64,000 nucleotides of DNA from Massilia violaceinigra (GTDB lineage Bacteria > Pseudomonadota > Gammaproteobacteria > Burkholderiales > Burkholderiaceae_D). The notes beneath the pieces are model-generated. The model ran no database searches, was not told where the DNA came from, and saw only the letters and a list, made by a program, of their open reading frames with translations. The translations under genes were made by a program, and so were the position numbers. Below, in pieces: positions 41,572 through 54,290 of this stretch; within the stretch, counting starts at the first letter, position 1, and each line of letters opens with the position of its first letter. The stretch is taken from assembly GCF_002752675.1 (NCBI RefSeq), contig NZ_CP024608.1, positions 2,976,001 through 3,040,000 of the forward strand, read 5' to 3'.

Positions 41572-42636
41572 TTACGCCTCGGGGCCGACCTGCCAGGCGC
41601 CATCCCGGTAGACCAGTTCCTCGTCCAGGTACACGCTTTCGGTCACGGCGAAGATGTCGACGTGGTAGCGCGCATCCTTGCGCTTGAAGCCCGGCTTGGG
41701 ATAGACGCCATGCTTGGCCCCCAGCGACAGGTGGATGCCGCACATGCGCTCATACGTGCCGATGTCGTTGACGCGGCGCTCGCGGGTAAACGCGCGGTTC
41801 ATGCCGAAGCCGAGTTCACGTACCCACACTTCGCCTTCCTCAAGCCGGATAATCTCCAGCAGGCGCGCGAATTCCGGGGTGGCGTCGACCGTATCGACCA
41901 CGCGGCCACGTTCGATCACCAGCGTGATCGGGGTGTCGGGGCGGTTGACCATGTACGAGGTGTCGCCGAATACGTGCACCCGCACGCGCCCGTTGACCGC
42001 TTCGAGGTCCTGCGCTTCGGTGAACACTTCGCCGATCGGGAACTGGCCGCCGACGTTGTTCATGCCGCTGTAGTCGCCCACATTCAGTTTGGCCGGCTCG
42101 AACGGCGAAGCGAATACCAGCGTCTCGCCGCCGCTGTGCACCACGCCGGTCGATGCGGCATCGATGCGGCGCTTGAGCGCCTTGCCCACGCCGCGGTAGT
42201 AGGCGCTGTCGTAGGCCAGCGATTCGATGTAGTGCTCGCCCTGCGCGCCCGGCATGCGCGACAGGTGCACGTGCTCGATCACTTTCAGTCCCAGCTTGAA
42301 CAGCTCGACCCGGATGCGGAAGGCTTCGAGCCGGAAGTTGGTCGACTGGATCAGCACCACCAGGTCGTGCGCCGCCATGCCCTTGAAGGCGGCCAGCACG
42401 TGTTCGGCGGCCACGGTATCGAAGTCGATGAACACGGCATCGGGCAGATTGCGCCGATAGCCTTCGGTCAGCGCGCGCGCCAGGTCGGAGCGGCAGTCAT
42501 GCACCACCAGCGCACGCTGGGCGGGGCCGTGTTCGACCACGGTGGCAAGCACCTCGTGCAGGTGGGTGGCGGCGGCATCGACGGCGTGCGCGGGAATGTC
42601 GCCCCAGGGGGCGGCGGTCAGGTCAGGGGAGGTCAT
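41572..42636 (-). CDS. M29-like aminopeptidase (leucyl aminopeptidase/aminopeptidase T type)
   Basis: A 354-aa protein resembling the M29 metallopeptidase group. Metal-ligand-like segments are NVGGQFPIGEVFTEA, MCGIHLSLGAKHG and RYHVDIFAVTESVYLDEELV, in the order seen in aminopeptidase T. No signal peptide is seen, so it should act in the cytosol on short peptides. It converges with the LysR gene and shows no operon partner. Confidence 0.8.
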   Translation of the reverse strand: MTSPDLTAAPWGDIPAHAVDAAATHLHEVLATVVEHGPAQRALVVHDCRSDLARALTEGYRRNLPDAVFIDFDTVAAEHVLAAFKGMAAHDLVVLIQSTNFRLEAFRIRVELFKLGLKVIEHVHLSRMPGAQGEHYIESLAYDSAYYRGVGKALKRRIDAASTGVVHSGGETLVFASPFEPAKLNVGDYSGMNNVGGQFPIGEVFTEAQDLEAVNGRVRVHVFGDTSYMVNRPDTPITLVIERGRVVDTVDATPEFARLLEIIRLEEGEVWVRELGFGMNRAFTRERRVNDIGTYERMCGIHLSLGAKHGVYPKPGFKRKDARYHVDIFAVTESVYLDEELVYRDGAWQVGPEA

Positions 42637-42724
42637 GGTGCGGTGCGAGGTCTTGGATGGCTTCCATTATACGTGGCGCCGAGGCATGGCTTTGCTTGGG
42701 AACCACACTTCCTTGTCGAAGAAA

Positions 42725-42752
42725 TAATGCTTTGTGTTATTTATTCCGATAA
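42725..42752 (+). promoter_or_regulatory. Candidate sigma-28-like promoter of the Cache gene
   Basis: TAAT (42725-42728), a 16-nt spacer and TCCGATAA (42745-42752) resemble the flagellar/chemotaxis sigma-28 pattern TAAA-N15-GCCGATAA, ~80 bp before the start codon. The match is imperfect. Confidence 0.35.
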
Positions 42753-42834
42753 GCCGACGGGCATATGTTAGCGTCAGTAAAACTACACGGTGCAAAGCCG
42801 GGCCCCTCGATCTGACAAACCACTGGAGATACAG

Positions 42835-43299
42835 ATGAAGTCATTGTTCAAGCAACTGGTGTTCGCGGTCTTTGCCCTCACCCTCGCCGGCGCCGCCAGC
42901 GCGCAGGATGTCAAGCGTGGTACCGCCGATGAAGCGGTGGCCATGGTCAAGAAGGCCAGCGCCTACCTGAACGACAACGGCCGCGACAAGGCGATCGCCG
43001 CCTTCAACGATTCCAAAGGCGAATTCATCAAGGGCGATCTGTACGTCTTCATGTTCACCTTCGACGGCACCGCGCTCGCGCACGGCCAGAATGCCAAGAT
43101 GGTCGGCAAGAATCTGATGGACCTGAAGGCCGGCGAGGTGTATCCGATCCGCGAATTCATCAAGATCGCCAAGAGCCCCGCCGGCACGGGCTGGTTCGGC
43201 TACAAGTGGCCCAATTCGATCACCAAGGCCATGGAAGAGAAAAACACCTACATCGAGCGCAATGGCGAGGTGCTGATCGGCGTCGGCACCTATAAATAG
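42835..43299 (+). CDS. Secreted single-Cache (sCache_2-type) protein
   Basis: A 154-aa protein: signal peptide (MKSLFKQLVFAVFALTLAGAASA) followed by one Cache-type sensory fold (AVAMVKKASAYLNDNGRDKAIAAFNDSKGEFIKGDLYVFMFTFDGTALAHG, WFGYKWPNSITKAMEEKNTYIER). There is no membrane helix after it and no output domain, so it is a free periplasmic protein that may bind a small ligand and pass it to another sensor. The ATG at 42835 follows CTGGAG. The upstream in-frame extension lacks a ribosome-binding site. Confidence 0.88.
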   Translation: MKSLFKQLVFAVFALTLAGAASAQDVKRGTADEAVAMVKKASAYLNDNGRDKAIAAFNDSKGEFIKGDLYVFMFTFDGTALAHGQNAKMVGKNLMDLKAGEVYPIREFIKIAKSPAGTGWFGYKWPNSITKAMEEKNTYIERNGEVLIGVGTYK

Positions 43300-43433
43300 A
43301 TTAAAATTGCGCTGCACCCCCGAAAACCGTCCTTGTCGACAATGGCGGTTTCTCTCCAGGCATCCGGTCCCGCCCCCTGAAATACCGCGAAACGGTACCC
43401 GGTAAATAAACCGCGTAGCCAACCCGTTTGCGC

Positions 43434-43473
43434 TATGATTTGAAGAGCAACAACGGCCCGCTTTGACGGGCCG
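43434..43473 (+). promoter_or_regulatory. Candidate promoter and hairpin before the tubulin-like cluster
   Basis: TATGAT (43434-43439) is a possible -10 without a good -35. It is followed by the stem CGGCCCG-CTTTGA-CGGGCCG (43454-43460/43467-43473). The stem has no clean T run, so it could be a leader structure of the cluster or the terminator of the Cache gene. Confidence 0.3.
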
Positions 43474-43494
43474 CGACTTCTTATACATATATAT

Positions 43495-44994
43495 ATGGCG
43501 GCAAGCGACATGGTACACCGATGGGAAACGTCCGGCAGCGTCTGGCTGGAAGATGAACACACGGCGCAGTTTGAACTGGCGTCGAGTGAAGGACTTGGCC
43601 GCGTCGAGCGCGAGGCCCAGTCGCGCGGCCGGCTTCCCGACATCGCCCACCTGCTCGGCGCCTCGCTGCCGCTGTCGTGCGACTGTTCGCCCATCTATCC
43701 CGAAGGTTTCGCGTTTTGCCCCACCTGCGGCGCGCCGCTCGACAAGCTGGCCGGCCGCGGCACGCCCCCGCCCGACTGGTGGGGTCCGTGGTCCGACCGT
43801 CTGCTGCCGCGCCATGTGCCGCATGGCCTGAGCGTGACCGCGCTGGCGCTTGGCGACAGCCTCGAAGAACGTCCCGCCGCGCCGGCCCCCGGCCGCCCTG
43901 ACCGCACAATGCCGGCCCCGCCCAATGCGCACTGCGTGTTCGCGGCCGGCGCCTTCGGCTTTTCCGCGCAGCGCCTGATCGCGCTGGCCCATGCCCGCAA
44001 CGTGCTGCAGTACTGGGACCCGCTCGGCGCGGCCTGGCATGTCATGGCGGCCGAAGACAACACGTCCGACCTGACCTTCAGCGCCCCGGCCTCGTCCTAC
44101 GCCTGGCTGCCGGCGCCTGACCCGCTGCGCGGCGAAGTGGGGCTGGTGCCGACCGACCGCGGCCTGCGCCGCCTGTTCATCGATCCGGTCAGCGAAACCT
44201 GGCGCACCGAGTCGGTGTTCGACGGCCATCTTGCCAGCGCGCCCGGCACCATGCGCCGCCACGTGGCTTGCCTGGTCAACGGCGAGGCCGGCGTGCGCCT
44301 GTGGAGCGCGCACAGCGACATGAGCAATGAAGTCGTCTACGAATGCGAGGCCCCGGCCGGCCACTGGGAGCGTCCGGTCGGCTACGACGGCAAGCTGTTC
44401 TGGCTGCACGCCCAGGGCCAGATGGTGTGGCAGCCGGGCGCTCCACCGCAATGGATCGCGTGGCCGGCCGGCTGGTCGCCGCGCCTGCAGTTTGGCGGCC
44501 CCACGCAAAGCCGCGACGGCCGCCTGTGGCAGATCGGCCATGATGGCCAGGCCTATTCCTTCCTCGAACTGGGCAAGGCCGACGGCCAGCTCGAAGCGCT
44601 GTCCGGCGCGCGCCTGGGATTTGCCAGCCTGCTGTTCCGGCGCGGCCATGCGGTGGTGGGCGAACCGTGGGGACAGGAACACGTCGAAGATCCGCACGAC
44701 GACGACGCCATGGTGCTGCCGCTGCTGCGCGGCTTCAATAACAACCGCAGCCAGCCAAGTGGGCTGGTGCTGCGCTTTCACCAGTACACCGGCATGGCCG
44801 AAGATGCGCTGGCCGGGCGCATCATCGCGCGCACCACGGTCGAATGGATCGGCAAGCGCAACGTGATCCTCGACGACATCGCGCGCCTGGCGCGTCCGCT
44901 CGAGTGCGTGCCTTTCGTGTACGACAACTGCCTGTGGCTGCACCATCCGGACTGGAACCAGGTGCGCGGCTGGCATCTGGACGCACTGTCGTGA
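43495..44994 (+). CDS. Zinc-ribbon protein, first gene of the tubulin-like cluster
   Basis: A 499-aa protein of unrecognised family. The first ~60 residues are polar. A zinc ribbon follows with Cys62, Cys64, Cys75 and Cys78 (CDCSPIYPEGFAFCPTCG). The remaining ~400 residues are rich in short beta-like segments with Trp/Gly turns (VLQYWDPLGAAWHVMAAED, GLRRLFIDPVSETWRTESVF), suggesting a beta-propeller. No signal peptide or membrane helix. The start is ATG 43495; ATG 43510 is an alternative, and neither has a clear ribosome-binding site. Its TGA overlaps the GTG start of the next gene. It may be a scaffold for the cluster. Confidence 0.75.
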   Translation: MAASDMVHRWETSGSVWLEDEHTAQFELASSEGLGRVEREAQSRGRLPDIAHLLGASLPLSCDCSPIYPEGFAFCPTCGAPLDKLAGRGTPPPDWWGPWSDRLLPRHVPHGLSVTALALGDSLEERPAAPAPGRPDRTMPAPPNAHCVFAAGAFGFSAQRLIALAHARNVLQYWDPLGAAWHVMAAEDNTSDLTFSAPASSYAWLPAPDPLRGEVGLVPTDRGLRRLFIDPVSETWRTESVFDGHLASAPGTMRRHVACLVNGEAGVRLWSAHSDMSNEVVYECEAPAGHWERPVGYDGKLFWLHAQGQMVWQPGAPPQWIAWPAGWSPRLQFGGPTQSRDGRLWQIGHDGQAYSFLELGKADGQLEALSGARLGFASLLFRRGHAVVGEPWGQEHVEDPHDDDAMVLPLLRGFNNNRSQPSGLVLRFHQYTGMAEDALAGRIIARTTVEWIGKRNVILDDIARLARPLECVPFVYDNCLWLHHPDWNQVRGWHLDALS

Positions 44995-46490
44995 CCCGGC
45001 GGCTGCCGCGCACCGCGCGCCTCGCCGCCAGCGCCGCGCTGCTGTGCGCCGGCGCGCCCGCGCTGGCCGGCTCGCACGTGTTCCTGGTCCAGAACTCCGG
45101 CTGGATGGAGCCGTTCTATACCGATCCCGTATCGCCCTTCAAGCCGCTGGTGGCCGAAATCGTCATGGCCGCCACCCGGCCGGGCGAGCCGATGGTGCTG
45201 GCCGCGTTCAACCAGGGCGTTCCCGGCGCACCGTCGCCCAGGGCGCTGCTCTCGCTCAAGGTCGACCCGGTGCCCACGCGGCGCCAGGTGGTCGGCGCGC
45301 TGGCCGCGCTGGAGGTGGCGCGCAAACCGGGCAGCACGGCGCTGGCCGACACCGACCTCAATGAAGCCGTCGGTTCGGCCATCGGCACGGCGCTGGGCGG
45401 CAAACCGGGCCTGGTGTGGCTGTTCACGAACAATCGCAACAGCCCGAACAACGACCAGGCGACGGCGCTGCGCAACCGCGACTTTTACCAGCTGATTCAC
45501 CGCGGCGGCGCGATCAGCAAGGCGCTCGCCTTTCCGCTGCAGATGCCGGTGCAGGGCGCGCAGTACCGCGCCAACGGGTTGATGGTGTACGTGTTCGCGG
45601 TGGGCGCGCAGGGCGCGCGCGAGCTCGATGCGCTGCTGGCCTCCGGCCGCCTGCAACAGGTCATCACGGAACCGGCCGCGCGCCTCAAGCCGCTCGACCG
45701 CGACACCGTGCGCCTGGTGCCGCGCAAGGTCAGCGACGGGCCCGGGGTGGCGTTTTCGATGGCGCCGAACGGCGTGCTGCATGCCGACGTGGATGCCGAA
45801 GCGCGCACGCCAAGCGCCAGGATCGAGTGGAACCTGGAGAACACCATGTACCCGTACACCATCGTCAGCGCCACCCTCGGTGCGCGCTCGGTGCTGGGCG
45901 GGGAAAACCATCCCATCGAACTGGCCGGCACCCAGGTCAGCAAGCTCGCGCCGGGAAAAAGCGCGCCGCTGGCCTCGAAAATGCAGCTGCCGGTGGGGCA
46001 GCTGCCGGGCAAGTGGTCGATGCAGGCCGTCACCTCGGCCGGTTCGGCCTACGTGGTGCCGGGACGGATCGAACTGCAACTGAGCGGCCAGCGCCTGGAA
46101 CTGTCGCACGCCTTTCGCCAGCGCATGGCCACGCTGTTCCCGGGCGACCCGCTGCCCGACATCTTCACGCCGCCGGCGCAGATCGACGGCTCGACCGCCG
46201 TGCTGCGGATCGAGGTGCGGGTGCATTACGGCGTTGGCCCGCTGGTGGCGCTGATCGGCGCCGCGCTGGCGCTGCTGGGCGCGGCGGCTGCCGCGGTGCT
46301 GGCCATGGCGCGTCCGCGCAAGGCGTTCGTGACGGTGGAGGATGAACTGCGTACCATGCACGCGCGCGCCGGCACGACCCAGCCGATCTACGACAAGGCG
46401 GGCAACAAGGTCGCGCAACTGAAAACCACGCTGTTCGGCCACCAGCTGATCGACCTGCGCGAAGGCGCGCAAGTCCAGCTGGGCCGCTGA
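44991..46490 (+). CDS. vWA-like exported membrane protein of the tubulin-like cluster
   Basis: A 499-aa protein starting with GTG (GTGA overlap with the upstream stop). It has a signal peptide (MTRRLPRTARLAASAALLCAGAPALA), then a von Willebrand A-like domain, GSHVFLVQNSGWMEPFY, in which the metal-site pattern DxSxS is changed to QNSGW. A second beta-rich domain follows, then one membrane helix at ~416-438 and a ~60-aa cytoplasmic tail (ending DLREGAQVQLGR). It therefore spans from periplasm to cytoplasm. The vWA call is by pattern only. Confidence 0.65.
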   Translation: MTRRLPRTARLAASAALLCAGAPALAGSHVFLVQNSGWMEPFYTDPVSPFKPLVAEIVMAATRPGEPMVLAAFNQGVPGAPSPRALLSLKVDPVPTRRQVVGALAALEVARKPGSTALADTDLNEAVGSAIGTALGGKPGLVWLFTNNRNSPNNDQATALRNRDFYQLIHRGGAISKALAFPLQMPVQGAQYRANGLMVYVFAVGAQGARELDALLASGRLQQVITEPAARLKPLDRDTVRLVPRKVSDGPGVAFSMAPNGVLHADVDAEARTPSARIEWNLENTMYPYTIVSATLGARSVLGGENHPIELAGTQVSKLAPGKSAPLASKMQLPVGQLPGKWSMQAVTSAGSAYVVPGRIELQLSGQRLELSHAFRQRMATLFPGDPLPDIFTPPAQIDGSTAVLRIEVRVHYGVGPLVALIGAALALLGAAAAAVLAMARPRKAFVTVEDELRTMHARAGTTQPIYDKAGNKVAQLKTTLFGHQLIDLREGAQVQLGR

Positions 46491-46518
46491 TCTATCCATT
46501 ATTATTAGGACCACTGTC

Positions 46519-46971
46519 ATGCAAAATCCCAAGGACCCCGCAAGCGCACCCGCCGATCCCGGCTTCAGGCTGCCCAATGCGGCCAGTGCGCCTCCCATCG
46601 GGCCGTTCAAGGGCGGCGCGAACGGCGGCACCTCGCCCCTGTCGATCGAAATCGCCCCGATGGATGGCGCGCCGGTGACCGATACCTCCACGCGCGACCT
46701 GGCCATCGGCGGCGCCGTGTTTCTGGTGCTGCTGATCGGGTTTTTCTTCGTGCGCAACGCCTACGTGCACCACCTGGTGGTCAAGCGCGTGGCGCCGTCG
46801 TCGGCGGGCAGCGCCGGCTGGCTGATGTTCGTCGGCCTGTCGCTGGTGAGTGCGGCGGGGGTGCTGGCGGTCATCAACCCCGGCAAATTCCTGACCATGG
46901 CCATTACCGCGACCCTGGTGGTGGTGGGCCTGATCGCCATCATCGCCGCCCTGTTCGTGGGCCGGCGCTGA
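46519..46971 (+). CDS. Small three-helix membrane protein of the tubulin-like cluster
   Basis: A 150-aa protein with a Pro/Ala-rich N-terminal region of ~58 residues, then three predicted membrane helices (LAIGGAVFLVLLIGFFFV; WLMFVGLSLVSAAGVLAVI; LTMAITATLVVVGLIAIIAAL) and a short basic end (VGRR). No known family recognised. It sits 28 bp after the vWA-like gene and 24 bp before the tubulin-like gene on the same strand, so it is probably a membrane partner of that protein. Confidence 0.75.
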   Translation: MQNPKDPASAPADPGFRLPNAASAPPIGPFKGGANGGTSPLSIEIAPMDGAPVTDTSTRDLAIGGAVFLVLLIGFFFVRNAYVHHLVVKRVAPSSAGSAGWLMFVGLSLVSAAGVLAVINPGKFLTMAITATLVVVGLIAIIAALFVGRR

Positions 46972-46995
46972 CCCAACAACTGAAAGAGATTTGAC

Positions 46996-49900
46996 ATGGC
47001 AGAATTTCCCAACACGGGCAGCGGCGGGGGTAAAGCTGAACTCAAGGCGGAACTGAAGGTTGACCTGCGGCCAACGCTGTTCATCGGCGCCGGCGGCACC
47101 GGCATGGAAGTGATGCTGCGGATTCGCCGCCGCATCCTGTCGGAGGTATGGAACCGCCACAATCCGACCCGGGTCGAATCGATCGCGCAGTTTCCGGTCG
47201 CGCGCTTTCTGCACTTCGATCTCGATAACAACGCCATCATCGACGAGGGCAAGTCGCAGCGCACCGACCCGTGGTATGAGCTGGTCAAGCTGGACGACGA
47301 CGAGCGCCTGGTCGAGCCGCTCGACCTTCCCCAGTATCACGAATCGGACGACAGCCTGGCGCGCTTTCCGCTGATCGAAAACTGGATGCCGCTGCGGCCC
47401 AAGAAACTGCGCTCGCTCGGGATCGATCCGTCCAAGGGCGCGGGCCAGATCCGCGCGCTGGCGCGCCTGTACCTGTTCGACAAATATCCCAAGCTGCGCG
47501 GGCGCATCAAGGGCGCACTGAATTTCTTGAGCAGCAATGCTGGCAACGAGCGCAAGGAAACCTACCAGCGCCTCGGCCTGCAGGTCGACACTTCCAAGTT
47601 CCGCATCGTCGTCATCGCTTCCTGCGCCGGCGGCACGGGCGCCGGCAGCGCCATCGACCTTGGCTGGATTTCCAAGGCCATCGCGCGCCAGGAAGTGTCC
47701 GACAACCAGGTCGACCTGGTGATGTTCATGCCGTCCGGTTTCGCCAAGGCCAACAAGGAGCGCACCGAGGCCAATGCCTACGCGACCCTGATGGAGCTGG
47801 AGACCACCATGCGCGACATGAACGCGCAGGTACGCTGGGCCGAGCCGGACAGCCTGGTGGGCAAGGGCGCGCCGTTCGACGATGTGTACTTCGTCGACAC
47901 CGCCAACCTGGCCAACAAGGCGACGGGCGACATCAAGGATCTCTACCAGATGGTGGCCGACACCCTGTTCGAGGACTTCGCCTCGGCCGATTTTGCCAAC
48001 CGCAAGCGCTCGATCGCGGTCAACCAGCAGCAGCACAAGCTGGGGCCCTTCAATCCGCGCGTGCCGGAACAGCGCTTCGGCGACATGCGCCTGTCGTACT
48101 CCAAGGTGTATTCTGCCTTCGGCCAGGCGGTGCTCGACACCCAGCAAAGCCTGCGCGACGATATCCGCGCCTACGAGCTGGCCGCGCTGATGGTCAAGGC
48201 TTTTTTCGGCCTGATTGGCGAGCACGCGGCCAGTGGCCGCGGGCTCGAACGGCTGGCGGCGCGCCGCGCGGGCGACCAGGAACGCGATATCTTCATGCGC
48301 GAGCAGATGGCGATGAGCGAGCATCCGTTCGACGAATTCCCCGACTTCAAAAAGGGCACGGTGGACCTGACGCCGTTCCAGGAATACGCGCTGACCGACC
48401 AGCTGCTGATGGACAAGGACCAGCGCTCGCTGCTGGAACGGGTCGAAAGCAAGGTGCAGCTGGAAATCGACCGCATCATGGGTTCGTACGACCTGGGTGT
48501 GTGGCGCGAAAAAGTGGTCGAACTCCTGCCGCACCTGGAGCGCGACGCTATCCGCGAAGCCGGCGCCACCGCCGAAACGAGCGAAGACCGCATCAAGCGC
48601 CACACGGCCGAACTGACCACGCGCCTGAAAGGGCGTGCGCGCACCCAGTTGTATGCGCTGCTGGACGACCGCAAGCAGGGCGGCCTGGAATTCGTGCTCT
48701 CGCTGCTGGAACAGATCAAGGCGCGCCTGCTGCAGCGCGACCTGGGCAACGCCGAACGCAACGGCAAGCGCTATCGCGACATCCGCGATGCGCTGCGCAC
48801 GCGCCAGGTCGAGGAGTCGCTCAATAACCTGTCGCAGGCGGCCAGCCGCCTGTTCGGCAAGGACGTCCAGGCGCGCGAAGTGATGGCTCACCTCAAGCGC
48901 GACATCGCCGACTATCTGCGCTTTCACCTGCTGGCGGTAGCTGCCGGCCAGTCGATCGAGGTGATGCGCGCCATGTCGGCCTGGCTGGGCGACCCGCAAA
49001 GCACCGACGAACAGGGGCAGCCGGTATGGAGTGGCATCGCCGGCGAATTCCAGGAAGGTCGCCGCTGCGTGCAGGCCATGCTGGGCGCGGTCGACCAGCG
49101 CATCGACCAGCTGCGCGCCGACGCGCGCCACGAACACGCCACCTGCATCAAGCTGGCCAGCGACATCCTGCCCGATCCGGTTGCCTTGAGCCGCGATATC
49201 CACACCTGGAGCGAGGAAGTGCTGCTCGAATTCGGCGGCTCGGCGCGCCTGTTCCCGCAACTGGGCGATGAAAAACTGCGCGCCAGCCTGCTGCTCAAGC
49301 TGTTCCGCCGGGCCCAGACCCAGCTCACCGTGCAGGAACCGGGCGATGCCGAGCCAAGCGATCCGCTGCTCGAACGCCTTGGCGCCATGTCGCCGCAGGA
49401 GCGCCAGCGCATCTTCAACGAGTGGCTCAAAAGTGCCATGCCGTGGATGAATGCGCGCTTTTCCGCCGAGTTCACGCCCAAGGCCGACCAGTTCAAGTGC
49501 TTCATCGGCGTGGGCGACGCCAATGCCTGGCGCAAGATGGAGACCGAAATCCGCGCCGCCGTGCCGGCCGGCTCCTTCCACGGCGATCTGGTTTCGGTGG
49601 TCAACACGGGGATCACGGGCAAGGCCGTGTGCTACATCGAGCTGTCGGGCTTTCCGATGACGGTACTGCGCGGCCTGCCGACCTGGCGCACCTCGTACCA
49701 GATCGAAAATCCCAAGATTCCGACCCACCTGCATTTCGACGCGACGCGCTTCCGTCATCCGATTTCGCCATCGATGGATGAATTGAACCGCCTGGCCGAC
49801 GACTACGAATGGTTCTTGCAGGCCAACGCGCTCGGTGTCATCCGCCGCAAGGGCGACCTGGCCGACCGCGAAGCGTCGTTCCAGCCGCGCGGGCAGTACC

Positions 49901-50646
49901 TGTTCGAGGTCGAGCCGGGATCGGGCGAGTGGCTCCAGATCGGCAACGAGTTTGCGATCCGCTCCAACGGCTTGCCGCCGTACTACCGCGAACAGGTGAT
50001 CGCCGCCGTGCAGAAGCGCCTGGCCGGCGTGGGGCCGGCCCAGCTCACCATGCTGGCCACCCTGATGCGCCACTTCCAGCTGCGCGTGTATGAGCCGAAG
50101 CTCGACGTCGACGAAACCGGCGCCCAGCTGCCATCGCCGTCGCTGCCGAACATCACCGCACGCCGTCTGTACGAGCAATGGTTCAAGCGCGCCAGCGCCA
50201 TGAATCCGGCTCTGTCCTTGCGCGACATCGATGCCGCCAGCGCATCGCTGCTCCAGTGGAGCGAGCCGGTGCCCAATTCGGCCAGCGACGCCTACACCTG
50301 GGAGGTCGAAAAATCGGTCGATAAGCGCGCCATCCGCGCCGCTTACCTGGCCAGCGAGTCCGAGGCGGCGCAGGCGCTGGCCGGGCGCGCGCTTGCGCCG
50401 CCGCTGCACGCGGGCGGCGGACGCTATAAACTGTTCATCGACGGCGCGCAGCAGGGACCATACTCGATCGACGAAATCGGGCTGCGCATCGCCCGCGCCG
50501 AAGTGGGGCCCGAGACCCGTGCGTGGAACATGCAATGGAATCCCAAGGCGGACAAGTGGAGGCTGGCGGGCGAACTGCCGGAGCTGGCCGCCTTGTTCGA
50601 CGATGCCATTCCCGACCCCGACAACGACATACCCGATCCAGACTGA
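46996..50646 (+). CDS. Large tubulin/FtsZ-like protein with C-terminal GYF-like domain
   Basis: A 1216-aa protein. Residues ~28-230 carry tubulin/FtsZ-type nucleotide-binding motifs: IGAGGTGMEVM (GAGGTG at 31-36, like the FtsZ N-terminal loop) and the signature CAGGTGAGSAID with GGTGAGS at 212-218. It matches the Pfam Tubulin_2 type rather than true FtsZ. The long middle is mostly alpha-helical with coiled-coil-like charge patterns. Residues ~1140-1202 form a GYF_2-like domain (YKLFIDGAQQGPYSIDEIGL…WRLAGELPELAALF), and the tail repeats IPDPDND. No membrane segment. It may form GTP-dependent filaments at the membrane; this is inference. Confidence 0.85.
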   Translation: MAEFPNTGSGGGKAELKAELKVDLRPTLFIGAGGTGMEVMLRIRRRILSEVWNRHNPTRVESIAQFPVARFLHFDLDNNAIIDEGKSQRTDPWYELVKLDDDERLVEPLDLPQYHESDDSLARFPLIENWMPLRPKKLRSLGIDPSKGAGQIRALARLYLFDKYPKLRGRIKGALNFLSSNAGNERKETYQRLGLQVDTSKFRIVVIASCAGGTGAGSAIDLGWISKAIARQEVSDNQVDLVMFMPSGFAKANKERTEANAYATLMELETTMRDMNAQVRWAEPDSLVGKGAPFDDVYFVDTANLANKATGDIKDLYQMVADTLFEDFASADFANRKRSIAVNQQQHKLGPFNPRVPEQRFGDMRLSYSKVYSAFGQAVLDTQQSLRDDIRAYELAALMVKAFFGLIGEHAASGRGLERLAARRAGDQERDIFMREQMAMSEHPFDEFPDFKKGTVDLTPFQEYALTDQLLMDKDQRSLLERVESKVQLEIDRIMGSYDLGVWREKVVELLPHLERDAIREAGATAETSEDRIKRHTAELTTRLKGRARTQLYALLDDRKQGGLEFVLSLLEQIKARLLQRDLGNAERNGKRYRDIRDALRTRQVEESLNNLSQAASRLFGKDVQAREVMAHLKRDIADYLRFHLLAVAAGQSIEVMRAMSAWLGDPQSTDEQGQPVWSGIAGEFQEGRRCVQAMLGAVDQRIDQLRADARHEHATCIKLASDILPDPVALSRDIHTWSEEVLLEFGGSARLFPQLGDEKLRASLLLKLFRRAQTQLTVQEPGDAEPSDPLLERLGAMSPQERQRIFNEWLKSAMPWMNARFSAEFTPKADQFKCFIGVGDANAWRKMETEIRAAVPAGSFHGDLVSVVNTGITGKAVCYIELSGFPMTVLRGLPTWRTSYQIENPKIPTHLHFDATRFRHPISPSMDELNRLADDYEWFLQANALGVIRRKGDLADREASFQPRGQYLFEVEPGSGEWLQIGNEFAIRSNGLPPYYREQVIAAVQKRLAGVGPAQLTMLATLMRHFQLRVYEPKLDVDETGAQLPSPSLPNITARRLYEQWFKRASAMNPALSLRDIDAASASLLQWSEPVPNSASDAYTWEVEKSVDKRAIRAAYLASESEAAQALAGRALAPPLHAGGGRYKLFIDGAQQGPYSIDEIGLRIARAEVGPETRAWNMQWNPKADKWRLAGELPELAALFDDAIPDPDNDIPDPD

Positions 50647-50650
50647 CGCC

Positions 50651-51523
50651 ATGAACCTGCAAGACCAAGTGATCTACCGCTGCATCGATGCCGCCTGCGC
50701 GCGGCCGATGCCGCGCCGGGTCGATTTTTGTCCGTACTGCGGCGCCCCCCAGCACGACGGGGCGCGCCGGCCCGCGCCCGCCGGCGCGGGCGTGCCTGCT
50801 CCGGCTTCCGCGGCGCCGGTGGCGGCAGCGCCCGCGCCGCCGCTCGACGCTCCGTCGTTCGTGCAGGAGGTGCCCGTGGCGCCTCCTGCACCCCCCAGGC
50901 CGGCCCCCGCCGCGCCAGCGCGCAAGAGCGCGCCGCGGCCCGCGCCGGCCCCCGGTACCGGACTGCGCAAGCCGATCCGCCTGCGTTACTGGCTGATGGC
51001 GCTGGCGCTGCTGGCCGTGATCTGGTTCACGGCCAAACCGGAACCCAAACGGATCGAGGCGCGCATCAGCGAGGCCACCGAGCTGGCTGAAAAATGCAAG
51101 ATCAAGGAAGCGCAGGACGAAGTGGTCGCGCTCAGGGCCGACAAGGTCAGCGCCGCACAGCTGCGCCGCTTGCAGTCGTCGATCAACGCGGCGGCCGACG
51201 CCTGCGAACGCAAGCACCCGCGCGCGGTCAAGCCCAAGGCCGCCCCAAGGACCGAGCCGGCGGCGGCGTCGCCCAGGCCCGCGCCGCGGCCCGTGGAGCG
51301 CCCGCTCGACCCGTCGGCGCGCAACCTGATCGCCGAAGCCGAGCGCCAGATCGCGCAGGGCGATTACCGGGCCGCCGCCGCCAAGCTGGAAACCTGCATC
51401 GCCATGGTGGAGGGCGGCAGCCGCGAGTGCGCCGCGTTCAAGAAATACGCCAACCGCCTGCTCAGGGAAATGGAGAATTGCGTGGCTGCGGGACGCTACT
51501 GGGCCAACGGGCGCTGCACGTAA
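50651..51523 (+). CDS. Zinc-ribbon membrane protein, last gene of the tubulin-like cluster
   Basis: A 290-aa protein. The N-terminal zinc ribbon has Cys11, Cys16, Cys27 and Cys30 (YRCIDAACARPM…FCPYCGAPQ). A Pro/Ala-rich linker follows, then one membrane helix at about 112-128 (YWLMALALLAVIWFTA) and a periplasmic part with TPR-like helices (ARNLIAEAERQIAQGDYRAAAAKLETCIAM) ending in a Cys-containing tail. The ATG lies 5 bp after the tubulin-like stop codon, so the two are cotranscribed. Its topology would put the zinc ribbon in the cytoplasm, near the filament-like protein. Confidence 0.75.
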   Translation: MNLQDQVIYRCIDAACARPMPRRVDFCPYCGAPQHDGARRPAPAGAGVPAPASAAPVAAAPAPPLDAPSFVQEVPVAPPAPPRPAPAAPARKSAPRPAPAPGTGLRKPIRLRYWLMALALLAVIWFTAKPEPKRIEARISEATELAEKCKIKEAQDEVVALRADKVSAAQLRRLQSSINAAADACERKHPRAVKPKAAPRTEPAAASPRPAPRPVERPLDPSARNLIAEAERQIAQGDYRAAAAKLETCIAMVEGGSRECAAFKKYANRLLREMENCVAAGRYWANGRCT

Positions 51524-51653
51524 ATACAATTTTGTCGTGAAGTCCAGCGCAACTCATCCGACATGTATCTTTTTTGTAAAGATTGTCAAAGTGCTTGCGA
51601 GAATGTTGCTACTTGGTCTAGGATCGATACTTTCCCGATCATTGGAGACGTCG

Positions 51654-52022
51654 ATGGCTCTCAGCAGAATTCTCCCGTCGCTGGCGCTGGCCTGCGGCGC
51701 AGCCTCGGCGCAAGCTGCCAGTTTCGACTGCGTGTCGCCCGAGTTTCCCGATAAATCAGTGTCGAGCCAGGCCGCGCGCCGGGTGGACGACCAGGTGCGC
51801 GCGTGGGAAAAGTGCTATGCCGAGTTCCGCGCCGGGCACTGGAGCATCGATGCCGCGCGCCAGAACGATGAAGTGGCGGCCGGCCTGGAACGCTGGATGA
51901 CGCTCACGCGCACCCAGAGCCGCACGCGCAGCGCCGACGCGCCGGTGCGCGTCAAGCGCGACAGCCAGGCCGCGCGCTTCGTCGAACAGGCCCCGGTCCA
52001 ATACGCGGTCGAACTGCGCTGA
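51654..52022 (+). CDS. Small exported protein
   Basis: A 122-aa protein with a signal peptide (MALSRILPSLALACGAASAQA) and a short mature domain with two Cys residues (FDCVSP and WEKCYAEF), probably disulfide-linked in the periplasm. No family is recognised. The ATG at 51654 follows TTGGAG; the open frame upstream (from 51537) adds a second hydrophobic stretch and is unlikely. It is separated from the tubulin-like cluster by 130 bp and may be an independent gene. Confidence 0.65.
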   Translation: MALSRILPSLALACGAASAQAASFDCVSPEFPDKSVSSQAARRVDDQVRAWEKCYAEFRAGHWSIDAARQNDEVAAGLERWMTLTRTQSRTRSADAPVRVKRDSQAARFVEQAPVQYAVELR

Positions 52023-52034
52023 GCGCGGGCCGCT

Positions 52035-54290
52035 TCAGGCCACCGGCTGCATCCGGATCGCAATCCCGGACAGCACCGCGTTGCCCGACAGGGGATCGCG
52101 CAGATTTTCGTCCAGCAGGGCGTTCAGGTTCACGCCCGGGCGCTCGGCCGCCACCCGCATCTGCGTGCCTTCCAGGTTGTGGCCCCAGCCATGCGGCAGG
52201 CTGACCACGCCGGGCATCATCTGCGCCGAGATCTCGACCTGCACCTCGATCGTGCGCTCGCCATTGCGGATCTGCGCCATGGCGCCGTCGACCAGGCCAA
52301 GCCGCGCCGCATCGATCGGATGGACCAGCGCCGTGCAGCGGTAGGCGCCCTTGGCCAGCACCGGCAGGTTGTGCATCCAGCTGTTGTTCGAGCGTAGCTG
52401 GCGCCGGCCCACGATGACCAGGTCGGGCGCGGGCGAGCGCAGGTCGGCCGCGGCGCGCGCCAGGTCGTCCAGCAGCACCTGCGGCGCCAGTTCGATCTTG
52501 CCCGAGGGTGTGCGCAGCGCTTGCGGAATGCGGCTGCCCATCGGCCCGAGATCGATGCCCGAAGGCGCCGCTTTCAGGCGCGCCAGGGTCAGCCCGTCCG
52601 GGTTTTTGCCGAACTGGTCGCCGTAAGGGCCGCTGCGCAGCGCCAGGTCGAGCCTGCGTTCCGCGCCGCGCTGGCCTCCCAGCGCCGCCATCAGCGCCGG
52701 GGCGGCCTCTCCGGCGGCGCGCTCCAGCTCTTCCCGCAGCATGTCGTCGTCGAGCGCGTCGATGTCGGCCTGCGCGCCCAGTCCCTTGGCGATGGCGGCG
52801 ATGCGCATCAGGGTTTGCCACTCGTGCGGCTGGTCGCCGGCGCGCGCCAGCACGGGCGCGCTGAAACGGGCGTGGTTGCGGTGCGAGAACTGGGTGAAGG
52901 TGACGTCGTAGTGCGCGTCTTCCAGCGGCGAGAGGCCCGGCAAAATCACGTCGGCGTGGCGCGAGGTTTCGTTGAGGTAGATATCGAGGCTGACCATGAA
53001 GTCGAGCTGGTCGAGGGCTCTCGACAGGCGCGCCCCGTTCGGCGCCGACAGCACCGGATTGGCGGCGATGGCGATCAGGGCCCGGATTTGCCCTGAGCCG
53101 GGGGTGTCGATTTCCTCGGCCAGGCAGGTCACCGGCAGCTCGCCCGACACTTCGGCCGCGCCCGAGACGCGCGAACGATAACGTCCAGTGATCACGCCGC
53201 GCCCGGCGCCCGGTGCACCGCGCGTATTGGCGGCAAAGGCGGCCGCTTTCGGGAACATGGCGCCGCCTTCTTCATCGAGGTGCCCGGTCAGCACGTTGAT
53301 GACGTCGATCAGCCATGAACACAGGGTTCCGAACTGCTGGGTGCAGGTACCGATGCGGCCATAGATGGCCGCGCGCGGCGTATTGGCCAGGCTGCGCGCG
53401 AGCTGGCGCATGGTGGCCGCATCGATGCCGCAGCGCGCCGCCACCAGTTCGGGCGCGTAGTCCCGCACCGCGGCTTGAACCTGTTCCAGGCCCACCGTGT
53501 GTTCGGCCAGGCGCCCCAGGCGCACCAGGTTTTCGTCGAACAGCGCATGCGCGATCCCGAGCAGGAAGAAGACGTCGGCCCCGGGGCGGATGAAGTGATG
53601 GGCGTCGGCCACGTCGGCCGTTTCGGTGCGGCGCGGATCGATCACGACCAGCTGGCCGCCGCGCGCGCGCAGCGCCTTGGCCTTGCCGCGAAAGTCCGGC
53701 ACGGTCCACATGCTGCCGTTCGAGACCATCGGATTGGCGCCCAATATCAGCAGAAAGTCGCAGCGCTCGATGTCGGGCACGGGTACCGACATCCAGTTGC
53801 CGAACATTAGCCCGACGGAGAGCATCTTGGGAATCTGGTCGACGCTCGACGCCGAGTACATATTGCGCGTGCCGAGCGCCTTGGCCAGGCGCGGGAAGTA
53901 CAGCATCAGGCTCATTTTGTGGGCGACCGGGTTGCCCAGCACCGTGGCCACGGCATTGGCGCCGCCGGCGGCGATGACGGGCGGCAGGCGCTTGTCGATC
54001 TCGGCGTAGGCTTCGTCCCAGGTGGCTGGCTCGAACACGCCATTGCGCTTGATGAGCGGGGTGCGCAGGCGGTCCGGGTCGTCGTGCAGGTCTTTCAGGC
54101 CGATCGCCTTGGGACACAGGAAACCGTGCGAGAACACGTCGTTGGCGTCGCCGCGGATGCGCACCACCTTGTTCTCTTCGAGGTCGAGTTCAAGCCCGCA
54201 GCAGGCTTCGCAAAACGGGCAAATGCGGTGCGCGCTGGCGGTAGGTACGGCGGTAGGTACGGCGGCGGGCGGGGTCGTGGACAAGGTCAT
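52035..54290 (-). CDS. Molybdopterin oxidoreductase (formate dehydrogenase-like)
   Basis: A 751-aa protein of the prokaryotic molybdopterin oxidoreductase family. The N-terminal 4Fe-4S motif is intact (Cys24, Cys27, Cys31, Cys59 in ICPFCEACCGLEL and SHGFLCPKA). Later come pterin-binding segments (ILGANPMVSNGSMW, SLDIYLNETSRHADVILPG) and the C-terminal molydopterin dinucleotide-binding domain (LPHGWGHNLEGTQM). No Tat signal, so it is probably cytosolic. The first 20 residues contain a repeated VPTA motif from a short tandem DNA repeat. No electron-transfer partner is adjacent. Substrate unknown. Confidence 0.9.
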   Translation of the reverse strand: MTLSTTPPAAVPTAVPTASAHRICPFCEACCGLELDLEENKVVRIRGDANDVFSHGFLCPKAIGLKDLHDDPDRLRTPLIKRNGVFEPATWDEAYAEIDKRLPPVIAAGGANAVATVLGNPVAHKMSLMLYFPRLAKALGTRNMYSASSVDQIPKMLSVGLMFGNWMSVPVPDIERCDFLLILGANPMVSNGSMWTVPDFRGKAKALRARGGQLVVIDPRRTETADVADAHHFIRPGADVFFLLGIAHALFDENLVRLGRLAEHTVGLEQVQAAVRDYAPELVAARCGIDAATMRQLARSLANTPRAAIYGRIGTCTQQFGTLCSWLIDVINVLTGHLDEEGGAMFPKAAAFAANTRGAPGAGRGVITGRYRSRVSGAAEVSGELPVTCLAEEIDTPGSGQIRALIAIAANPVLSAPNGARLSRALDQLDFMVSLDIYLNETSRHADVILPGLSPLEDAHYDVTFTQFSHRNHARFSAPVLARAGDQPHEWQTLMRIAAIAKGLGAQADIDALDDDMLREELERAAGEAAPALMAALGGQRGAERRLDLALRSGPYGDQFGKNPDGLTLARLKAAPSGIDLGPMGSRIPQALRTPSGKIELAPQVLLDDLARAAADLRSPAPDLVIVGRRQLRSNNSWMHNLPVLAKGAYRCTALVHPIDAARLGLVDGAMAQIRNGERTIEVQVEISAQMMPGVVSLPHGWGHNLEGTQMRVAAERPGVNLNALLDENLRDPLSGNAVLSGIAIRMQPVA

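Follow-up and report, generated by a model that had tools for sequence, protein, structure and literature searches.

A five-gene cluster around a Tubulin_2 (FtsZl1) protein in Massilia violaceinigra and its possible role as a membrane-tethered scaffold

INTRODUCTION

What might a giant tubulin-like protein do in a bacterium that also has an ordinary FtsZ, when it is encoded in one run with predicted membrane proteins? We studied this question for five co-directional genes (43510-51523, + strand) in the 7.5-Mb genome of Massilia violaceinigra. All positions refer to the analysed stretch of 64,000 nucleotides of NZ_CP024608.1, which we call the window, and the genes are named g1, vwa, tm3, tub and zr. 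Sequence comparisons lead us to favour, with moderate confidence, a scaffold of FtsZl1 (Tubulin_2) type that is tethered to the membrane.

Makarova and Koonin defined FtsZl1 in 2010 with neighbouring genes for von Willebrand factor A (vWA) proteins, GTPases, kinases and OmpA, and predicted a role in membrane remodelling (PMC2875224). This is the prediction that a first-pass annotation, made from the letters of the window, had cited for Tubulin_2 and vWA proteins. According to the accessible text of that paper the metal ion-dependent adhesion site (MIDAS) is intact in most vWA partners of FtsZl1, and the words zinc, GYF and caspase are absent from its main text. In their accessible parts, later papers repeat the vWA/FtsZl1 association (PMC5898192), treat Tubulin_2 as a divergent outgroup (PMC9871819) and, in the case of Kaur et al. 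2020, assign the tubulin and vWA genes found in firmicutes and actinobacteria to conflict systems that also contain DO-GTPase and GAP1 (PMC7159879). The first-pass annotation had called the gene set uncharacterised. This holds for the accessory set and fails for the core family with its vWA link, published in 2010, and for the tubulin/vWA neighbourhoods of other bacteria, published in 2020. Our literature search covered titles and abstracts, mostly without subscription papers and with no bioRxiv preprints; within it we found no experimental study of Tubulin_2/FtsZl1 16 years after its description and recognised no description of the five-gene set.

RESULTS

Gene order and conservation

The genes and elements considered here are the following:
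43432..43440, + strand: -10-like element GCTATGATT (TATGAT), upstream of the operon
43510..44994, + strand (longest open reading frame (ORF) from 43495): g1, soluble, zinc-ribbon-like
44991..46490, + strand, GTG start: vwa, exported-looking, vWA-like pattern, single transmembrane (TM) segment
46519..46971, + strand: tm3, 150 residues, three TM segments
46996..50646, + strand: tub, 1216 residues, Tubulin_2 (FtsZl1), long middle region, GYF_2 end, acidic tail
50437..50586, + strand: GYF_2 domain (PF14237) within tub, residues 1148-1197
50651..51523, + strand: zr, zinc ribbon, Pro/Ala-rich linker, one TM segment

The reading frames g1 and vwa overlap by 4 bp, and gaps of 28, 24 and 4 bp separate vwa/tm3, tm3/tub and tub/zr, so that the same-strand run with overlaps or gaps of 4-28 bp is as first reported. 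We found 44 related loci through tub, 35 of which extend 4.5 kb or more before and 1.3 kb or more after the gene. In all 35 the five genes keep their order and strand (in this count an iterated profile was used for zr where tblastn missed it; tm3 in the 44 loci was scored by tblastn). The other nine loci are cut by contig ends and contain all five genes in five cases and two to four genes in four. The first-pass annotation had staked its proposal on this linkage in relatives. In two pairwise comparisons the ratio of nonsynonymous to synonymous substitution rates (dN/dS) stayed below 1 for each of the five genes, with 0.09-0.12 for tub and the highest value, 0.70, for tm3. Because synteny is complete in the 35 loci and dN/dS is below 1 for every gene, the conservation of the five genes is more than chance. 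Among the 35 loci, L041 (Massilia sp. H-1) has g1, vwa and tub broken into partial ORFs, and in genome G521 (48% complete, one contig) the Tubulin_2 match is in two pieces; both are likely assembly errors.

Among named relatives the nearest are Massilia species, and named strains of Massilia, Rugamonas and Pseudoduganella carry relatives of the cluster. We fetched 26 further loci with flanks around Tubulin_2 matches, and 24 of these have a confirmed Tubulin_2 gene (L092 and L099 do not and are outside all counts). Half of the 24 have all five genes in order (12/24; L086, L087, L094-L098, L115-L119), and the other half have Tubulin_2 and no g1, tm3 or zr match (12/24; L088-L091, L093, L108-L114). 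For tm3 in the former group we used an iterated profile that was contaminated by shadow ORFs; an alignment confirms the gene in L086, L087, L095, L096 and L097. L086 is a five-gene locus from another class of the phylum, with a tub that shares 32% identity across residues 24-901 (locus L082).

The Tubulin_2 core protein

Against the Tubulin_2 model (PF13809) tub scored 165.8 bits (E-value 2.2e-48, cut-off 27) across residues 28-380. The Tubulin/FtsZ GTPase model (PF00091) gave 13.5 bits, which is under its cut-off of 33. By this profile match, which follows a check proposed in the first-pass annotation, tub is a member of the Tubulin_2/FtsZl1 family. The two tubulin/FtsZ motifs picked out at first are a T1-like GAGGTG (residues 31-36) and a T4-like GGTGAGS (residues 212-218), and both contain conserved glycines. 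In an alignment of 26 diverse Tubulin_2 rows with 16-96% identity to the window protein only W130, G212, T214 and G215 are invariant, and G31, G33, G34, G36 and G213 are among 12 more positions conserved at 90% or above. We compared a profile of the same rows to PDB sequences. The best matches were FtsZ (0.023), TubZ (0.058) and RepX (0.14), and 12 of the 13 matches at E ≤ 1 were FtsZ, TubZ, RepX or tubulins, the exception being a deaminase. Taken together these matches agree and are consistent with the family assignment. The genome contains one Tubulin_2 gene and, elsewhere, one ordinary FtsZ-type locus (PF00091, 8.4e-44).

After residue 380 the only Pfam match in tub is GYF_2. This speaks for a different reading, in which tub would be a GTP-dependent switch or a chaperone-like subunit that forms a small oligomer with its vWA partner and no filament; the same is true of the T6-H7 region, which was not identified in the family in the accessible text of PMC2875224. 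The conserved T1- and T4-like loops could be held against such a switch, yet they do not discriminate it from a filament. We consider the switch rather unlikely, and the scaffold remains our preferred reading.

We inferred the phylogeny of 25 Tubulin_2 domains by maximum likelihood, without L089, whose row is partial. The 14 five-gene rows are separated from all others by a branch supported at 99/98; in the outer part of the tree several lineages have long branches and uncertain positions.

The GYF_2 end and the zinc-ribbon protein zr

The GYF-like end of the first-pass annotation was recovered by Pfam: GYF_2 (PF14237) matches residues 1148-1197 with 28.6 bits (E-value 1.2e-6, cut-off 25.8), and relatives reach 47.7 bits. 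We found GYF_2 in all six scanned tub proteins of five-gene loci (window, L086, L087, L095, L096, L098) and in none of ten other Tubulin_2 proteins (L088, L090, L091, L093, L108-L111, L113, L114). Database entries list it as well for 117 of the 120 proteins closest to tub. Residues 1139-1201 were compared to PDB 7z3c (AgmX/GltJ, Myxococcus gliding) as well, and the match was not significant (E-value 0.18).

GYF domains bind proline-rich peptides. In zr the zinc ribbon (C11-C16-C27-C30, four cysteines invariant in 14/14 aligned sequences) is followed by a linker with a median proline content of 23% (range 0-44), compared to 4.5% after the TM segment. These values are from 52 loci, with the TM segment taken as the most hydrophobic 17 residues, and some of the picks are visibly wrong. 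In the window protein the TM segment at about 111-127 is weak and under the threshold of the 19-residue hydrophobic-segment scan, and the Cys-containing C-terminal part is predicted to be periplasmic. We propose a GYF-to-proline tether because the Pro-rich zr linker appears together with GYF_2 and because of the binding preference of GYF domains; the combination of the two features suggests such a contact.

The vWA-like protein and its altered metal site

By eye, the N-terminus of vwa resembles a signal peptide. A TM segment follows at 418-436 and then a tail of about 60 residues; from this we predict, also by eye, a periplasmic vWA-like domain and a cytosolic C-terminal tail. The N-terminal part carries the vWA motif pattern, and the MIDAS position reads LVQNSGWM...ADTD...TNN, with the pseudo-MIDAS residues Q34xS36xW38 and T146 N147 N148. 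The canonical site, DxSxS with an Asp in the third motif, is absent from vwa. At the level of motifs we regard the protein as vWA-like.

The altered site is nearly constant among relatives. QxSxW occurs in 53 of the 54 distinct locus proteins that have the motif region, the sole exception being L109 (DxSxS), and the third motif TNN occurs in 52 of the 54. A further 38 locus ORFs have no vwa motif match; many are fragments of 4-kb loci starting inside vwa, and they were not checked individually. For the closest 120 of 947 database matches we observed QxSxW in 120 and TNN in 119. In L109 the syntenic vwa relative keeps DNSGSM and TDN, and its tubulin adjoins the five-gene clade in the tree (85/80). 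The link of this protein to vwa is weak: against a vwa profile that excluded L109 it gave an E-value of 0.0021, with 15.7 bits, where the highest of 200 shuffles reached 1.4. Because L109 stands next to the clade and keeps both motifs, the MIDAS probably changed at the base of the five-gene clade.

The membrane proteins and g1

The three-helix membrane protein of the first-pass annotation is tm3, with hydrophobic segments at 60-78, 101-119 and 129-147. By the positive-inside rule its topology would be N-out/C-in. The N-terminal tail contains a conserved GF.LP-type motif, which we had considered as a ligand of the tub GYF domain and dropped, as the same rule places the tail in the periplasm. 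Together with vwa and zr these hydrophobic segments bear out the membrane link that had been proposed.

The first gene, g1, encodes no hydrophobic segment and no TM segment. It has an N-terminal zinc-ribbon-like motif CxC...CPxCG (Cys 62, 64, 75 and 78, numbered from 43495). The Zn_Ribbon_1 match is below cut-off in the window protein (E-value 0.013) and is seen at E ≤ 10 in 10 of 15 aligned members, at best with 0.0041. A beta-propeller fold for g1 is not claimed, as the best internal repeat scored 0.4 bits and was beaten in 2/5 shuffles.

In relatives, envelope-type genes join the cluster. One subclade (L087, L094-L097) has, 3' of zr in all five loci, a gene for a lipoprotein-like product whose Gly-zipper matches do not reach cut-off, and L116 has a weak match to this gene at the same place (about 25% identity, E-value 1e-4). 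In L086 the product of a gene between tub and zr matches a 17-kDa-antigen model over cut-off and a peptidoglycan-binding model slightly under it. As these lipoprotein-like and 17-kDa-antigen/peptidoglycan-binding-like genes accompany the cluster, they support an envelope role.

An exported-looking vwa and two membrane proteins would also suit an inner-membrane transport or signalling complex, an idea of a reviewer of the 2010 paper who, in the accessible text, pointed out that the Polaromonas gene has a periplasmic binding protein as its neighbour (PMC2875224). None of the five proteins scored over cut-off with a transporter, kinase or response-regulator family, and we give this possibility little credence compared to the scaffold.

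Distribution and other Tubulin_2 operon types

Tubulin_2 of any type was found in 7 of 300 genomes of the order, 65 of 245 genomes of the family (64 over cut-off; 7 of 44 genera), 8 of 398 genomes of the phylum (7 over cut-off), 7 of 289 genomes of the class of G855 and 4 of 200 genomes of the family of G264. The distribution is patchy.

We also encountered two other operon types. The first is a sister type from the same order and combines the tubulin with a caspase-like protein (Peptidase_C14) and DUF4384 (L093, 4960-10332; L113, 6034-12213; L088, 2617-13263). In L088 and L113 a small gene with a Cys motif (by eye) lies 3' of tub, TPR-like in L113, and L088 additionally carries CHAT and OmpA. 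In genome G520 this type occurs alongside the five-gene type. The second type (L091, 3734-8900; L112, 3917-8930) has short Tubulin_2 proteins of 523 and 505 residues, each adjoining a protein of 1191 or 1155 residues with weak actin-like (MreB/FtsA) matches below cut-off, possibly a tubulin-actin-fold pair.

The patchiness in the order and the family and the sister operons with caspase-like proteins, one of them also with CHAT, are what one might expect if the cluster were an immune-like conflict system of the tubulin/vWA kind, in which the tubulin acts as effector or scaffold once an invasion is sensed. The accessible text of PMC7159879 adds tubulin and vWA neighbourhoods in GAP1-N2 systems and GYF in some planctomycete ones. 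We nevertheless judge this reading improbable. The five proteins gave 0 PADLOC matches at E ≤ 0.01 and, in general libraries whose holding of DO-GTPase and GAP1 models is unchecked, no GTPase family besides Tubulin and no GAP1. Furthermore, gene content is constant across the 35 loci, compared to the highly variable components that the same text states for such systems.

Upstream region and flanking genes

Counting the window, 27 of 41 loci have GCTATGATT no more than 200 bp before the conserved start of g1, compared to 1 of 820 mononucleotide shuffles, and the sequence may be the promoter element of the five-gene operon. The g1 translation start is most likely 43510 rather than 43495, because an ATG is kept at the matching position in 39 of the 41 loci (one GTG and one ACG in the others). 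A hairpin with 7-bp GC arms (43454-43473) lies about 36 bases before this start and was seen by eye in L002, L003 and L028. We do not claim an RNA element, since the hairpin is absent from most of 14 sequences compared; an Rfam scan of 42500-52100 gave no match at E ≤ 0.1.

The flanking genes are less widely shared than the five-gene core among the 44 related loci. A Cache-domain gene directly upstream on the same strand (42790-43299) is present in 12 loci, a molybdopterin oxidoreductase flank gene in 13, and a gene for a small exported-looking protein just 3' of zr (51537-52022) in 9; the last is possibly an optional sixth gene of the lineage.

DISCUSSION

Proposed mechanism

In the scaffold that we favour, tub would bind GTP and self-assemble in the cytosol, and its GYF_2 domain would dock on the proline-rich linker on the cytosolic side of zr, by which zr would hold tub at the inner membrane. 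Together vwa and tm3 could form an envelope complex, with g1 as a cytosolic cofactor. The predicted periplasmic domain of vwa, with a pseudo-MIDAS presumably free of metal, might bind a periplasmic or cell-wall ligand, and binding might be relayed through the cytosolic tail of vwa to tub. An ordinary FtsZ is encoded in the same genome, and the system therefore most likely serves to organise or remodel the envelope locally rather than to divide the cell. We offer more tentatively the complete trans-envelope chain, in which vwa senses the periplasm without metal-dependent binding and a GTP-driven tubulin responds, attached by a GYF-to-proline contact to a zinc-ribbon anchor.

Several observations weigh against this interpretation. 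For tub, the T6-H7 region could not be placed in FtsZl1 (PMC2875224, accessible text), each PDB profile E-value is weak on its own, and three of the 120 closest database proteins (P0004, P0063, P0120) list no GYF_2. The vWA call of the first-pass annotation survives as a motif pattern, without a canonical metal site: Pfam gave no VWA match to the window protein even at E ≤ 1, an hhalign comparison with 14 VWA_2 domains aligned the motifs with a non-significant probability of 0.2%, and the vwa alignment profile matched only three OB-fold/SSB entries in PDB (E-value about 1). From the two zinc ribbons that had been named, zr stands on its four cysteines, and g1 is less certain, as its CPxCG cysteines are missing in four aligned relatives (L087, L095, L096, L097). 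The proline content of the zr linker varies and some linkers have 0%. Finally, GYF_2 and zr co-occur in a single clade, and common descent alone could explain this.

The five-gene version in cultured bacteria, together with a concrete docking hypothesis, makes the envelope role of Tubulin_2 directly testable.

Comparison with known systems

We compared the cluster with the systems described in the accessible parts of two papers. Like GAP1-N2/DO-GTPase systems (PMC7159879), which have membrane vWA proteins, it combines a tubulin that is extended at its C-terminus with a membrane protein that is vWA-like by motif, and GYF occurs in some related systems; the difference is that our five genes gave no DO-GTPase or GAP1 match, with the reservation made above on the models held in the libraries. 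The likeness to FtsZl1 operons (PMC2875224) is closer to the gene set itself: a giant protein with an N-terminal FtsZ-like domain and GGTG loops, neighbours of vWA type (here vWA-like by motif) and membrane proteins, and ordinary FtsZ also present in the genome. Unlike those operons, the present set has GYF_2 fused to the tubulin, a replaced MIDAS and the genes zr, tm3 and g1, and it has no GTPase or kinase gene.

As far as can be told, the five-gene variant with its altered vWA metal site and predicted tether looks undescribed, with a core family known since 2010. What looks new is the near-invariant QxSGW...TNN, GYF_2 tied to five-gene loci and one supported tubulin clade.

Two further systems are similar in parts. 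AgmX (GltJ) is an envelope motor protein that has both a GYF domain and a zinc ribbon (our literature search found no paper on this combination); the likeness is the GYF-type domain, and here GYF and zinc ribbon are on separate proteins. ZipA is a TM protein with a Pro-rich linker that holds FtsZ at the membrane. By analogy, and with no claim of homology, we propose that zr likewise anchors a tubulin-family GTPase. Unlike in FtsZ-ZipA, the contact proposed here would have the GYF domain on the side of the GTPase and the proline-rich peptide on the side of the anchor. The cluster could thus extend the known ways in which tubulin-like proteins are attached to a membrane, and the sensor-scaffold, if true, would be a tubulin-membrane attachment unlike FtsA, ZipA and SepF.

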